Positions 1-12,643 of a stretch of 40,974 nucleotides of DNA are shown piece after piece. Source of the stretch: Bacteroidaceae bacterium (GTDB taxonomy: Bacteria; Bacteroidota; Bacteroidia; Bacteroidales; Bacteroidaceae); NCBI GenBank assembly GCA_017547585.1, contig JAFYPH010000033.1, forward strand, positions 1 to 40,974, read 5' to 3'. The notes below the pieces were generated by a model. That model did not search any database and had not been told where the DNA came from. It saw only the letters and a program-made list of their open reading frames with translations. Position numbers and translations under genes: made by a program. How positions within the stretch are numbered: the first letter of the stretch is position 1; each line of letters starts with the position of its first letter.

Positions 1-200
1 AAATATTCAAGTAAACTTGATATTTCTTGCTCGCTTAATTGTATCTTTAGATAAGATATCCTGCGCTCGCGGTAATAAATATTCAAGTAAACTTGATATT
101 TCTTGCTCGCTTAATTGTATCTTTAGATAAGATATCCTGCGCTCGCGGTAATAAATATTCAAGTAAACTTGATATTTCTTGCTCGCTTAATTGTATCTTT
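1..200. repeat. 76-bp tandem repeat array, about 2.6 copies, promoter-associated
   Basis: Copies begin at 1, 77 and 153. The first two are identical over 76 bp and the third matches for 48 bp to position 200. Each has a palindromic core (TCAAGT-aa-ACTTGA, first at 7-20) followed by TTGCTCGCTTAATTGTATCTTT. In the last copy this runs into G, completing a TATCTTTG -7 box for the S41 peptidase gene; the two upstream copies have A instead of G, so their boxes are imperfect. Read on the minus strand, the unit is clearly related to the array at 9969-10370. The window edge cuts the array, so more copies may lie outside. Confidence 0.93.
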
Positions 201-9252: not shown

Positions 9253-9963
9253 TTAATGGAACGAATATATTCCTGTCAGAAGCAATATCACACTCACTAA
9301 CGAAGCTGTTATCACCACAGCACCGATGATGCGGTTGATTATCCATATTCCGCGAACATCGAAACGGTTGCGCAGTTTATTCACCGCATATGTAATGAAA
9401 AGCCACCACAGCACTGCACCGCCAAAGATTGAAAGATAGCCTATCACCTGCTCGTAGTAGGGAAGGTCGGGCAGCATGAAGGACAATGGGGTGAACATTG
9501 CGAGGAACAAGAATATTATCAAGGGATTGGTGAGTGTAAGACCAAAGCCTGTAAGTGCGTTGCGCACCAGATTACTGCGATTGTGACTCACCTTTATTGT
9601 ATTCTTTGCAGGATTGGTGCGATAGGTGTAGATTCCGAAGAAGAGCAGCATCACACTGCCGCACAACTGCAGCCAGAAGAGATTGCGCTCGTTGTGGATA
9701 AAGTCGTAGATGTACGACAATCCGTAACCGGTTATTACTGCGTAAATAATGTCGCTGACTGCAGCGCCGCAACCTGTCACAAGGCCATACATTCGCCCCT
9801 TGTTGAGTGTTCGCTGCACACACAACACACCTACCGGCCCCATGGGAGCCGATGCCACAATTCCTATGATGATACCTTTTACAACAATTTCGAGTATCGA
9901 CATCTGCGCTACAAGCTGCTGCAAAAAGTCATTCTGCTGTATAAATTCGTTAATTTCATTCAT
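9253..9963 (-). CDS. LysE family amino acid exporter-like transporter
   Basis: A 236-residue inner-membrane protein with about six hydrophobic segments. The family hallmark near the first helix is clear: GIIIGIVASAPMGPVGVLCVQ, then a short loop and GLVTGCGAAVSDIIYA. LysE/RhtB proteins export amino acids or related metabolites; the substrate cannot be read from sequence. The ATG is only 5 nt behind a TATCTTTG -7 box, so the transcript would be leaderless or nearly so. Upstream lies the large tandem repeat array, which supplies four more copies of the -7 box. Confidence 0.9.
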   Translation of the reverse strand: MNEINEFIQQNDFLQQLVAQMSILEIVVKGIIIGIVASAPMGPVGVLCVQRTLNKGRMYGLVTGCGAAVSDIIYAVITGYGLSYIYDFIHNERNLFWLQLCGSVMLLFFGIYTYRTNPAKNTIKVSHNRSNLVRNALTGFGLTLTNPLIIFLFLAMFTPLSFMLPDLPYYEQVIGYLSIFGGAVLWWLFITYAVNKLRNRFDVRGIWIINRIIGAVVITASLVSVILLLTGIYSFH

Positions 9964-9975
9964 CTTTGCAAAGAT
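9962..9975. promoter_or_regulatory. 14-bp perfect palindrome spanning the -7 box and start codon of the LysE-type gene
   Basis: ATCTTTGCAAAGAT is its own reverse complement. One half is most of the -7 box (minus strand, 9969-9976) and the other runs into the ATG at 9963-9961. It could be an operator, or only the coincidence of a box followed by CAAAG. Confidence 0.5.
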
Positions 9976-9976
9976 A
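9969..9976 (-). promoter_or_regulatory. Promoter -7 box (TATCTTTG) of the LysE-type gene
   Basis: This is the exact consensus, with only CAAAG between box and ATG. It is the gene-proximal member of the five identical boxes in the array. Confidence 0.65.
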
Positions 9977-10370
9977 CGACAAACGAGCGAGAAATATGAA
10001 GCTTGCTTCGATATTTTTCGCAGCGAGTGAAATATATTTTCGAGCTTTTGCTCAAAGATACGATAAACGAGCGAAATAAAATCAAGCTCGCTTGATTATT
10101 TTACAGCGAGTGCAACATATTTTCGTCGTTTACGACAAAGATACAATAAACGAGCGAGAAATATGAAGCTTGCTTCGATATTTTTCACAGTGAGTGAAAT
10201 ATATTTTCGAGCTTTTGCTCAAAGATACGACAAACGAGCGAAATAAAATCAAGCTCGCTTGATTATTTTACAGCGAGTGCATCATATTTTCGTCATTTAC
10301 GACAAAGATACAATAAACGAGCGAGAAATATGAAGCTTACTTCGATATTTTTCGCAGCGAGTGAAATATT
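9969..10370. repeat. Tandem array of five palindromic units (A-B-A-B-A), each with a promoter -7 box
   Basis: Units begin at 9969 (A), 10053 (B), 10136 (A), 10220 (B) and 10303 (A, partial). A is 84 bp and B is 83 bp, so the true period is a 167-bp dimer that is almost identical between copies. Every unit opens with CAAAGATAC (GTATCTTTG on the minus strand), then AAACGAGCGA, a palindrome, CAGCGAGTG and an AT-rich spacer. Palindrome cores differ by type: GAAGC-tt-GCTTC in A and ATCAAGC-tc-GCTTGAT in B. All five -7 boxes point at the LysE-type gene. No reading frame of note is present. Confidence 0.95.
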
Positions 10371-10395
10371 TTTTATCACTCACAATAAAGACAGC

Positions 10396-10437
10396 AAAAA
10401 AACGGGCCCTGCAAGAAAAGCTGCAGGGCCCGTTTTT
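10396..10437. terminator. Bidirectional terminator behind the glutamine synthetase gene
   Basis: A 13-bp GC-rich perfect stem (10401-10413 with 10422-10434) has an A run on one side and a T run on the other. It lies 22 nt behind the glutamine synthetase stop and separates that gene from the repeat array and the LysE-type gene. Confidence 0.9.
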
Positions 10438-10459: not shown

Positions 10460-12643
10460 TCAGCTGATGAAGAGCAATTCGCGGTATTTGGGAAGCGGCC
10501 ACTGCTCGTTATCGATGACAAGTTCGAGCTTGTCCACATGTTCTCTAATCTCCTCGAGCATGGGAGCAACAGTATCGTGGTAGGCAACAGCCTTTTCGCG
10601 CTCGATGGCGATGCGGTTGGCCACCTTGCGGCGCTCGACCATCGCACCCACCATTCTTTTAATTTCAGAAATATGCATCGCAATCTCTTTCACGGTAGCA
10701 ATATTTTCGGCCGAGTATTTATCACCCTCCTCCTTTCCAAGCACCGTCTCCATCTTTATGATGTTGTCCAGGAGCGAGCTCTGATACTTCATCGCCGTGG
10801 GCACAATGTGGTTGAGTGCAAGGTCGCCAAGCACGCGCGCCTCAATCTGCACCTTCTTCGTGTACATATCCCATTTAATCTCGTTGCGGGCTTTGAGCTC
10901 AGTCTCACCCATCACCTCCATGCGCGCAAACATGTCTATGCTTGCGGGCTCAAGATAGCGGTCGAACACCACAGGCGCACTCGACTCGCAGTCGAGGCCG
11001 CGTGCGGCAGCCTCGGCCTTCCACTCGTCAGAGTATCCGTTACCGTCGAAGCGGATGGGCTTGCTGTATTTTATATATTTGCGCAACACACTCACAAGAG
11101 CATCCTCTTTTGTAGCACCACCCTCGATGAGCGCATCAACCTCGCTCTTGAAAAGCACAAGCTGCTCGGCCATTGCTGTGTTCAGGGCAATCATCGCCGA
11201 TGCACAATTGGCCTCGGAGCCTACGGCGCGGAACTCGAATCGGTTACCTGTGAAGGCAAAGGGCGAAGTGCGGTTGCGGTCGGTATTGTCTATAAGAAGC
11301 TCGGGAATCTGAGGAATATTCAGACGAAGCTCGCGCTTGCTGAGAATTTTCACAACATCGTCGGTTGTCTCCATATGGTCGAGTACCGAAGAGAGCTGCG
11401 AGCCGAGGAAGCTCGAGATTATCGCAGGAGGCGCCTCGTTCGCACCCAGACGATGGGCATTTGTCGCCGACATTATACTCGCCTTCAGGAGTCCATTGTG
11501 ACGATAGATGGCGGCGAGGGTGTTCACCACAAAAGTGATGAAGCGGAGATTTTCTTTGTCGCTCTTTCCGGGAGCCATCAGCAGAGTGCCATTGTCGGTA
11601 CCCAGCGACCAGTTATTGTGCTTACCCGAGCCGTTCACGCCTTTGAAAGGCTTCTCGTGCAGCAGCACTATAAAGCCGTGCTTGCGGGCAACAACCTTCA
11701 TCAGCGACATTATTATCATATTGTGATCCACGGCTAGGTTACACTCTTCGTAGATGGGCGCAAGCTCAAACTGGTTGGGAGCAACCTCATTGTGGCAGGT
11801 TTTTGCGGGAATTCCCAGCTTCAGAGCCTCGACCTCGAGGTCGGTCATGAAGGCCGCCACGCGCTCGGGAATCGAGCCAAAATAGTGGTCGTCAAGCTGC
11901 TGATTCTTGGCACTGTCGTGTCCCATAAGTGTGCGACCAGTCATTTGAAGGTCGGGGCGCGCAAGGGCCATATCCTCGTCTACAAGAAAATACTCCTGCT
12001 CCCAGCCAAGATAGGTAATCACCTTTTTCACGCTCTTGTCAAAGTAGTGGCAGACATCGGTCGCAGCCTTGTCCACCGCGCGAATAGCCTTAAGCAGAGG
12101 AGCCTTATAGTCGAGAGCCTCGCCTGTATAAGAGATAAAAATTGTGGGCACGCAGAGTGTGTCGCCAATGAGAAAAGCAGGAGAGGTGGGGTCCCACGCA
12201 CTGTATCCGCGAGCCTCGAAGGTGCTGCGGATTCCGCCGTTGGGGAAAGAGGATGCGTCGGGCTCTTGCTGAACAAGCAGCTTACCCGAGAATTTCTCTA
12301 TCACTCCACCTTTACCATCGTGCTCAACAAAAGCATCGTGCTTTTCGGCAGTAGTCTCGGTGAGCGGGTGGAACCAGTGAGTATAGTGGGTAGCACCCCT
12401 CTCTATTGCCCAGCGCTTCATTCCCTCGGCAACGCCGTCGGCAATGGAAACATCGAGCGTCGCTCCATTGTCGATAACATCGATGAGCTTCGCATATATA
12501 TCACTCGAAAGATATTTGAACATCTTTTCGCGATTGAACACGTTCATTGCAAAATAGTCGGACGGACGACCCTCGGGCACTGTAGGCTTTACAGGTTTCT
12601 TGTTAAACGCATCGCGTACAACGTCGAATCTTAATTTTGACAT
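10460..12643 (-). CDS. glnN: Glutamine synthetase type III
   Basis: A 727-residue enzyme that makes glutamine from glutamate, ammonia and ATP in the cytoplasm. The length fits type III, not type I (about 450-470) or type II (about 350). Recognisable blocks are the N-terminal THWFHPLTE segment, EQEYFLVDE, the metal/substrate region CHNEVAPNQFELAPIYEE, and the nucleotide-site stretch FKGVNGSGKHNNWS. The C-terminal 150 residues form the helical type III-specific part. It stands alone between a terminator and its own promoter. The TATCTTTG -7 box at 12737-12744 gives a leader of roughly 90 nt, long enough for post-transcriptional control, though no riboswitch is recognised. Confidence 0.96.
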   Translation of the reverse strand: MSKLRFDVVRDAFNKKPVKPTVPEGRPSDYFAMNVFNREKMFKYLSSDIYAKLIDVIDNGATLDVSIADGVAEGMKRWAIERGATHYTHWFHPLTETTAEKHDAFVEHDGKGGVIEKFSGKLLVQQEPDASSFPNGGIRSTFEARGYSAWDPTSPAFLIGDTLCVPTIFISYTGEALDYKAPLLKAIRAVDKAATDVCHYFDKSVKKVITYLGWEQEYFLVDEDMALARPDLQMTGRTLMGHDSAKNQQLDDHYFGSIPERVAAFMTDLEVEALKLGIPAKTCHNEVAPNQFELAPIYEECNLAVDHNMIIMSLMKVVARKHGFIVLLHEKPFKGVNGSGKHNNWSLGTDNGTLLMAPGKSDKENLRFITFVVNTLAAIYRHNGLLKASIMSATNAHRLGANEAPPAIISSFLGSQLSSVLDHMETTDDVVKILSKRELRLNIPQIPELLIDNTDRNRTSPFAFTGNRFEFRAVGSEANCASAMIALNTAMAEQLVLFKSEVDALIEGGATKEDALVSVLRKYIKYSKPIRFDGNGYSDEWKAEAAARGLDCESSAPVVFDRYLEPASIDMFARMEVMGETELKARNEIKWDMYTKKVQIEARVLGDLALNHIVPTAMKYQSSLLDNIIKMETVLGKEEGDKYSAENIATVKEIAMHISEIKRMVGAMVERRKVANRIAIEREKAVAYHDTVAPMLEEIREHVDKLELVIDNEQWPLPKYRELLFIS

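Follow-up and report, generated by a model that had tools for sequence, protein, structure and literature searches.

What is the tandem array of palindromic units that stands in front of a LysE-type exporter gene in this stretch of Bacteroidaceae DNA, and how did it come to be there? An earlier note, made from the letters alone, described five tandem units in the order A-B-A-B-A, each with a -7 box facing the gene. It proposed either a promoter multiplier with a changing copy number or a REP/MITE-like element that moves with a promoter.

The lysE array and its surroundings

The array is situated at positions 9969-10374 of the window, which is the whole stretch of 40,974 bases that was analysed. 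It consists of five units of about 84 bp in the order A-B-A-B-A, with a unit length of 83-84 bp and a shorter fifth unit. TRF reports a tandem repeat over these positions with a period of 167 (95% matches) and a period of 83 (77% matches), and a repeat search gives 96% identity between the 167-bp dimers at 9969-10135 and 10136-10302. The minus-strand end of every unit is TATCTTTG, which reads CAAAGATA on the plus strand and starts there at 9969, 10053, 10136, 10220, and 10303. Five of the ten copies of CAAAGATA in the window belong to this array, and all five boxes are oriented toward the LysE gene, identified by Pfam PF01810 (E 9.2e-18). The TRF result, the box positions, and the Pfam match thus confirm the architecture that the earlier note had described. 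Its start of the array at 9969 is correct as well, and the end is 10374 rather than 10370. The features are as follows.

9253-9963, minus strand: LysE-type exporter gene (open reading frame and Pfam PF01810)
9969-10052, minus strand: unit 1, type A, gene-proximal; box TATCTTTG at 9969-9976, 5 nt before the lysE ATG
10053-10135, minus strand: unit 2, type B; box at 10053-10060
10136-10219, minus strand: unit 3, type A; box at 10136-10143
10220-10302, minus strand: unit 4, type B; box at 10220-10227
10303-10374, minus strand: unit 5, type A, distal and shorter; left box and left hairpin not recognisable by reading
10398-10437, minus strand: perfect 16-bp inverted repeat (arms 10398-10413 and 10422-10437), then a T run
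10460-12643: glutamine synthetase III gene, beyond the lysE array
1-200, plus strand: second array of the first family, at the contig start (TRF: 2.6 copies, 76-bp period; three profile matches)

Read by eye, the inverted repeat at 10398-10437 is likely the terminator of the glutamine synthetase III gene. There are no Rfam matches in the window at gathering scores. The last box of the contig-start array, again TATCTTTG, points at an S41 peptidase gene (ATG at 250). Because the contig opens within an array of identical 76-bp units, such repeats may break short-read assemblies, and unit numbers in MAGs may be underestimates. According to the available part of PMC7366714, TAnnTTTG is the deduced -7 consensus of the primary sigma factor in Bacteroides fragilis, with TTTG near -33, a motif not found in Flavobacterium johnsoniae.

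The array is absent upstream of lysE in 21 relatives, as judged by a profile search of the loci, and in three further ones. The 16 named loci with lysE relatives belong to Bacteroidaceae/Bacteroidales or Prevotellaceae MAGs, many of them from goat, sheep, deer, or buffalo hindgut. A TTTG box is present 4-5 nt before the ATG in 18 of the 21 relatives and 26-27 nt before it in the other three. With a box 4-5 nt from the start codon, both in the window and in these 18 relatives (among L051-L072), the mRNA may be leaderless or nearly so. The box of all 21 relatives is CAACTTTG-like and not TAnnTTTG (L066 and L067 by eye), so that the native box at lysE is judged from the nearest relative, L080. 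This locus, with 91% protein identity and without the array, reads TATCTTTGCAGAGATG where the window has TATCTTTGCAAAGATG.

Unit anatomy and the distribution of two families

The units are non-coding. In promoter orientation, a unit opens with hairpin H2, formed by the box TATCTTTG, a short arm, a loop (mostly TAAA), an arm, and the antibox CGAAnATA. This is followed by CTGCACTCGC, the central hairpin H1, GCTCGTTTG, 3-4 variable bases, and the next box. Folded as single-stranded RNA, the lysE array is more stable than 100 of 100 shuffles (z -5.69); the signal for a single unit folded as DNA is weaker (z -1.77), with 8 of 200 shuffles equally good. For a comparative analysis, 53 internal units were excised by their exact TAnnTTTG boxes and one per locus was aligned, giving 32 units from 32 loci in which the constancy of the box is due to selection of the units. 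Standard pairs make up 94.0% of the pair cells (85.5% when shuffled), covariation is 0.210 (0.074 when shuffled), and 62 cells are changed on both sides, compared with 17.6 in shuffles; the pairing and covariation values are reached by 0 of 500 shuffles. Judged by this alignment, the hairpins are real in a comparative sense. The long imperfect hairpin that the earlier note had seen in each unit is therefore supported by pairing and covariation, except that a full unit has two hairpins, one of box and antibox and one central. An asymmetry of G.U pairs was considered as a sign of function at the RNA level, and the 59 G.T and 19 A.C cells proved uninformative, because 55 of the 59 G.T cells sit in two column pairs.

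By reading of the unit alignment, there are no obvious terminal inverted repeats, and the palindromes are subterminal. The majority consensus contains no GTAG or CGTC tag on either strand (by reading). No clear -33 motif coming from the end of the element, and no constant TTTG at -33 within the unit, is seen by eye in the alignment; in the native flanks the signal is weak, with 7 of 44 having a TTG 20 nt upstream of the box. Long unit variants occur at L160, L048, L047, and L171, with a length of about 150 bp or, in genome G023, of 222-224 bp. All have extra palindromes ahead of the central hairpin, and those of G023 have them behind it as well. These variants are the longest forms seen in the fetched loci, where no long autonomous version was found. 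Longer pairs of ends were considered for this role, and they looked like chance matches to the left end or merged units.

A consensus search of the source genome and its relatives, the step to which the earlier note had pointed, reveals a dispersed family. The source MAG (2.26 Mb, 84.9% complete) contains 23 stretches that match the 167-bp dimer, several per array, and dimer matches occur in 44 of 44 genomes of the genus, source included, at 2 to 30 per genome. A covariance model built from the 32 units was used to scan 149 genomes of the order with strict filters and at most 28 candidates scored per genome, so that the counts are minimum values and some weak matches may have escaped it. It gave matches in five genomes, source included. 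Many matches were obtained only in the source MAG, G178, and G185, which represent three different families, whereas G064 (same genus as G178) and G152 gave two weak matches each. None was found in the other 144 genomes, including G102 from the same family. Such a patchy distribution resembles that of mobile DNA. Phage and plasmid records gave no match to the element, and viral contigs gave no match to one exact pattern.

A second repeat family has a different body and the common layout of box, antibox, body, and GCTCG-N8-box. It matches 21 of the 44 genus genomes (loci L279-L298). In 21 of 23 arrays from 22 loci an open reading frame starts at most 330 nt ahead of the box end, compared with 13 of 23 on the other side; this start rule is looser than the one used for the first family below, and L013 and L279 are one place. 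Both families occur within one array at L013 (G000:C8, near 12044-12270). At the S41 peptidase promoter, G000 and G030 have units of the first family and G014 has units of the second; several relatives have neither, as judged by eye. Two bodies with a common end and a common target suggest one shared machinery.

Placement at promoter boxes and duplication of the box

Random placement relative to genes, which the earlier note had named as an observation that would speak against it, is not seen. In a symmetric count of ATG-started open reading frames at 79 arrays (10 locus-edge arrays excluded), a gene start lies within 150 nt on the box side in 63 arrays and on the other side in 26. The start is on the box side only in 43 arrays, on the other side only in 6, on both in 20, and on neither in 10, and the median distance is 30 nt. 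An earlier count on an overlapping set found a same-strand open reading frame next downstream of the box end in 57 of 61 arrays (66 minus 5 with a short flank), the four exceptions being L015, L017, L020, and the first array of L036. A strict box is present at the right end of 71 of 85 arrays and at the left end of 49 of 85, compared with 30 of 1700 trials at random positions. Where the sister species G023 and G041 have orthologous arrays, each was entered as an array of its own in the placement, box, context, and end-identity counts. The tandem arrays contain 1-5 units.

The genes that the arrays face have little in common. The 82 downstream proteins are mostly unrelated, and only three groups of related ones exist outside the sister pairs, which rules against a gene-specific regulon. 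A tRNA-Arg(ccg) gene is faced by arrays in two genomes, at L020 (G000:C12:15208-15344) and at L045 (G020). At L036, two opposite arrays lie about 1.2 kb apart, and a HigBA-like pair (named from reading the sequence) is found downstream of one of them. A composite element was considered here, and by reading there is no transposase-like open reading frame between the arrays.

The state before and after insertion can be compared in front of a conserved gene (no Pfam match in its first 100 residues) in G041 and G023. The empty allele of G041 reads CCAAGATTTTCGTATATTTG directly followed by CAAGAATTTTTT, with a single TTCGTATATTTG and then the leader. In the filled allele of G023, CCAAGATTTTCGTATATTTG and CAAGAATTTTTT are separated by a 530-bp insert that ends in TTCTTCGTATATTTG and is built from long units of 224 and 222 bp and a short one of 84 bp. 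The 12-bp sequence TTCGTATATTTG is present as a direct repeat at both ends of the insert, compared with one copy in G041, and this comparison indicates that insertion duplicates the gene's own -7 box. The gene was matched in 39 of the 44 genomes, and 30 upstream regions were sorted by eye. Eighteen have a single native TATATTTG or TATCTTTG box, and five have units (L158, L160, L164, L171 in decayed form, and L182). The others are remnant-like (L165 and L183), coding sequence (L169, L186, and L187), or ambiguous (L175 and L185). At trpS, a unit is present in G023, G034, G004, and G007 and not in G041; the G041 site appears to hold an older remnant. Where the site is filled, its two boxes differ in context.

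Duplication of the box is thus documented directly at one clean empty/filled pair, and elsewhere statistically. The contexts of the left (native side) and right (gene side) boxes were compared in 37 of 51 rows, after removal of seven without a clean left box (by hand) and of seven whose left flank resembles the tail of another unit. At position 4 of the box, both sides agree in 30 of 37 loci (shuffled mean 17.0, reached in 0 of 5000 shuffles). Agreement at -1 to -5 is 20, 20, 22, 32, and 10 of 37, compared with 12.0, 9.9, 16.5, 26.2, and 5.6 in shuffles, and it does not exceed the shuffles at -6 to -10. The two sides also agree at +1, just past the box (19 compared with 12.2), and because this position is outside the box the exact length of the repeat is uncertain. 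Over all 51 rows, contiguous identity of the ends is at least 12 bp in 13 and less than 8 bp in 17, with a median of 8. In our reading, these values reflect a target duplication of about 12 bp whose copies would erode with age.

The length of the arrays differs between sister species, in line with the change of copy number that the earlier note had proposed. G041 and G023, with 15 loci each, share seven orthologous array pairs, of which six were aligned. Three pairs are equal, two differ by a whole unit, and one differs by a partial unit with changed boxes; these genomes are draft MAGs in which unit numbers may be mis-assembled. Decayed boxes are found in some arrays (L131). In a separate observation, the three aligned boxes of L143 (G041) and L152 (G023) all differ in the same base, TATATTTG in one and TATCTTTG in the other, as if changed in concert.

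Explanations for the arrays and known systems

The lysE array is probably a tandem pile of short, non-coding, MITE-like elements that insert at the Bacteroidales -7 box and duplicate it. The insertion point would lie immediately 3' of the final G of TAnnTTTG, with units always oriented the same way, and each end would afterwards carry one copy of a direct repeat of about 12 bp, made up of the box and roughly 4 nt. The left-hand box would keep the native upstream promoter half, and the right-hand box would keep its native distance to the start codon, leaving the gene with a -7 box; we infer that this would explain why such insertions are tolerated at promoters. The reaction would be carried out by an enzyme acting in trans that recognises the -7 box, its flank, and the common end. 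Arrays would grow in tandem at one box when insertion recurs or when units recombine with one another, and units could be lost again. The 167-bp dimer repeat at lysE would be a later duplication of two units. From the suggestion of a REP/MITE-like element moving with a promoter, the mobile unit tied to the box is retained, but such a unit would use a -7 box that is already in place as its entry point and make a second copy of it. The additional boxes might be active promoters or silent.

The arrays could also be cassettes of a site-specific recombinase, an explanation that we regard as possible but doubtful. Here a tyrosine recombinase would use the -7 box and its flank as the attachment core, and small circles, perhaps dimers, would integrate at identical cores. 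Such integration would entail a fixed orientation, identical cores on either side, tandem growth, and precise excision; the arrays are indeed oriented one way relative to the gene, their end cores match, and they hold 1-5 units. The whole-unit differences in two of six pairs, the 167-bp dimer period at lysE, and the two families with different bodies and the same end also fit. CTnDOT of Bacteroides reportedly has the core GTANNTTTGC, and this target core resembles the -7 box. Against cassettes of this kind, GTANNTTTGC fits only 10 of the 51 right ends, and an 84-bp double-stranded circle is very small. There is perhaps a one-in-four chance that several hairpin families with a common end form a system of tiny cassettes that has the housekeeping -7 box as its attachment site, is served by one site-specific recombinase, and integrates only at such boxes and in one orientation. 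If so, the system would build and lose tandem arrays and rewrite promoters genome-wide without breaking genes. The idea that every box fires and that copy number tunes or phase-varies expression is somewhat less likely still. All five boxes fit the -7 consensus given in the available part of PMC7366714, and array length varies; this promoter multiplier is disfavoured by the lack of a constant TTTG at -33 in the unit by eye and by the decayed boxes in arrays such as L131.

We consider it improbable that the units are REP/REPIN-like palindromes moved by a single-strand Y1 transposase (RAYT or IS200/IS605-like), with the antibox pairing with the target box as a guide. Hairpins near the ends without clear terminal inverted repeats, and one-way insertion directly 3' of a constant sequence, would suit such an enzyme. 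The antibox is complementary to the left box at its variable position in 26 of 35 readable rows, an agreement that could arise by either route, target choice or later correction within the hairpin. A Y1 enzyme does not predict the agreement of box contexts at both ends, however, and the majority consensus is without GTAG or CGTC. Y1_Tnp is found in 5 of the 44 genus genomes and is missing from the source assembly (a MAG about 85% complete) and from 39 of the 44, and REP/RAYT was set aside on this ground. DDE_Tnp_1 (PF01609) is found in 17 of 44 and likewise not in the source assembly. No parent transposon with the same ends was found at the 29 DDE_Tnp_1 and five Y1_Tnp loci examined, none of which has element ends on both sides of the transposase gene. 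Units adjoin such genes on one side only, in L096 and in L276/L278 (one place). An IS4-type DDE parent was rejected, since PF01609 has no match in the source assembly and units lie near such genes only at L276/L278 and not on both sides. Still less credible, and in our view very improbable, is the idea that a single regulon has a conserved cis-regulatory array, either an operator or a 5'-UTR RNA, that was passed on by vertical descent. The palindromes are indeed kept with compensatory changes, the orientation to genes is constant, and orthologous genes with arrays occur in more than one genome (three protein groups, and tRNA-Arg(ccg) in G000 and G020). But most of the 82 downstream proteins are unrelated, and one or two shared groups would be expected by chance (an estimate made without computation). 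Orthologous promoters are often without an array, the distribution is patchy across families, and one locus exists as an empty/filled pair.

If insertion at the -7 box is the correct explanation, elements that target the promoter box and rebuild it as they insert would clearly exemplify safe-site targeting among bacteria, by a logic comparable to that of yeast elements that settle next to tRNA genes. Promoter turnover in gut Bacteroidales would become directly traceable, and the arrays would provide a natural promoter series with one to five units for testing the role of extra -7 boxes. Repeated promoter motifs in these genomes may then signal mobile DNA rather than a regulon.

One of the closest known systems is the BrickBuilt MITE of Porphyromonas gingivalis, which is also a non-coding, intergenic, multicopy Bacteroidales element with internal tandem repeats and reported promoter activity (PMC4596501, available part). 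It has a 23-nt repeat, a leader and a tail, and short terminal inverted repeats like ISPg1, whereas the periods here are 83 and 167. It lies 49-591 nt from genes in a bidirectional manner, and the available part of PMC4596501 does not mention -7 box targeting. REP/REPIN sequences with RAYT are likewise short extragenic palindromes in many copies; in the available part of PMC3733652 they measure 20-40 bp and carry a GTAG or CGTC tag, in contrast to the untagged units of about 84 bp from a source assembly without a Y1_Tnp match. CTnDOT, with its integrase IntDOT, is a large conjugative element of Bacteroidales with an integrase of its own (PMC8138268, available part). Tests for REP/RAYT, BrickBuilt, the Rfam families, and a CTnDOT-type core were all negative for the present element. 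Correia repeat enclosed elements of Neisseria are also short and multicopy with inverted repeats and can generate a promoter at their ends (PMC2649163, available part). They belong to another phylum than the present element and are not known to form tandem arrays at a pre-existing promoter box. The invertible promoters of Bacteroidales place a promoter in a palindromic setting and flip it between inverted repeats, whereas all five boxes of the lysE array point one way. No description of the present element was found in the open-access literature that was searched. Judged from sequence, it appears to work like a promoter-associated MITE, being short, non-coding, and dispersed, with a target site duplication in one clean case. 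Small hairpin elements that settle at promoter boxes, copy the box, and pile up in tandem appear to represent an unusual lifestyle of mobile DNA.
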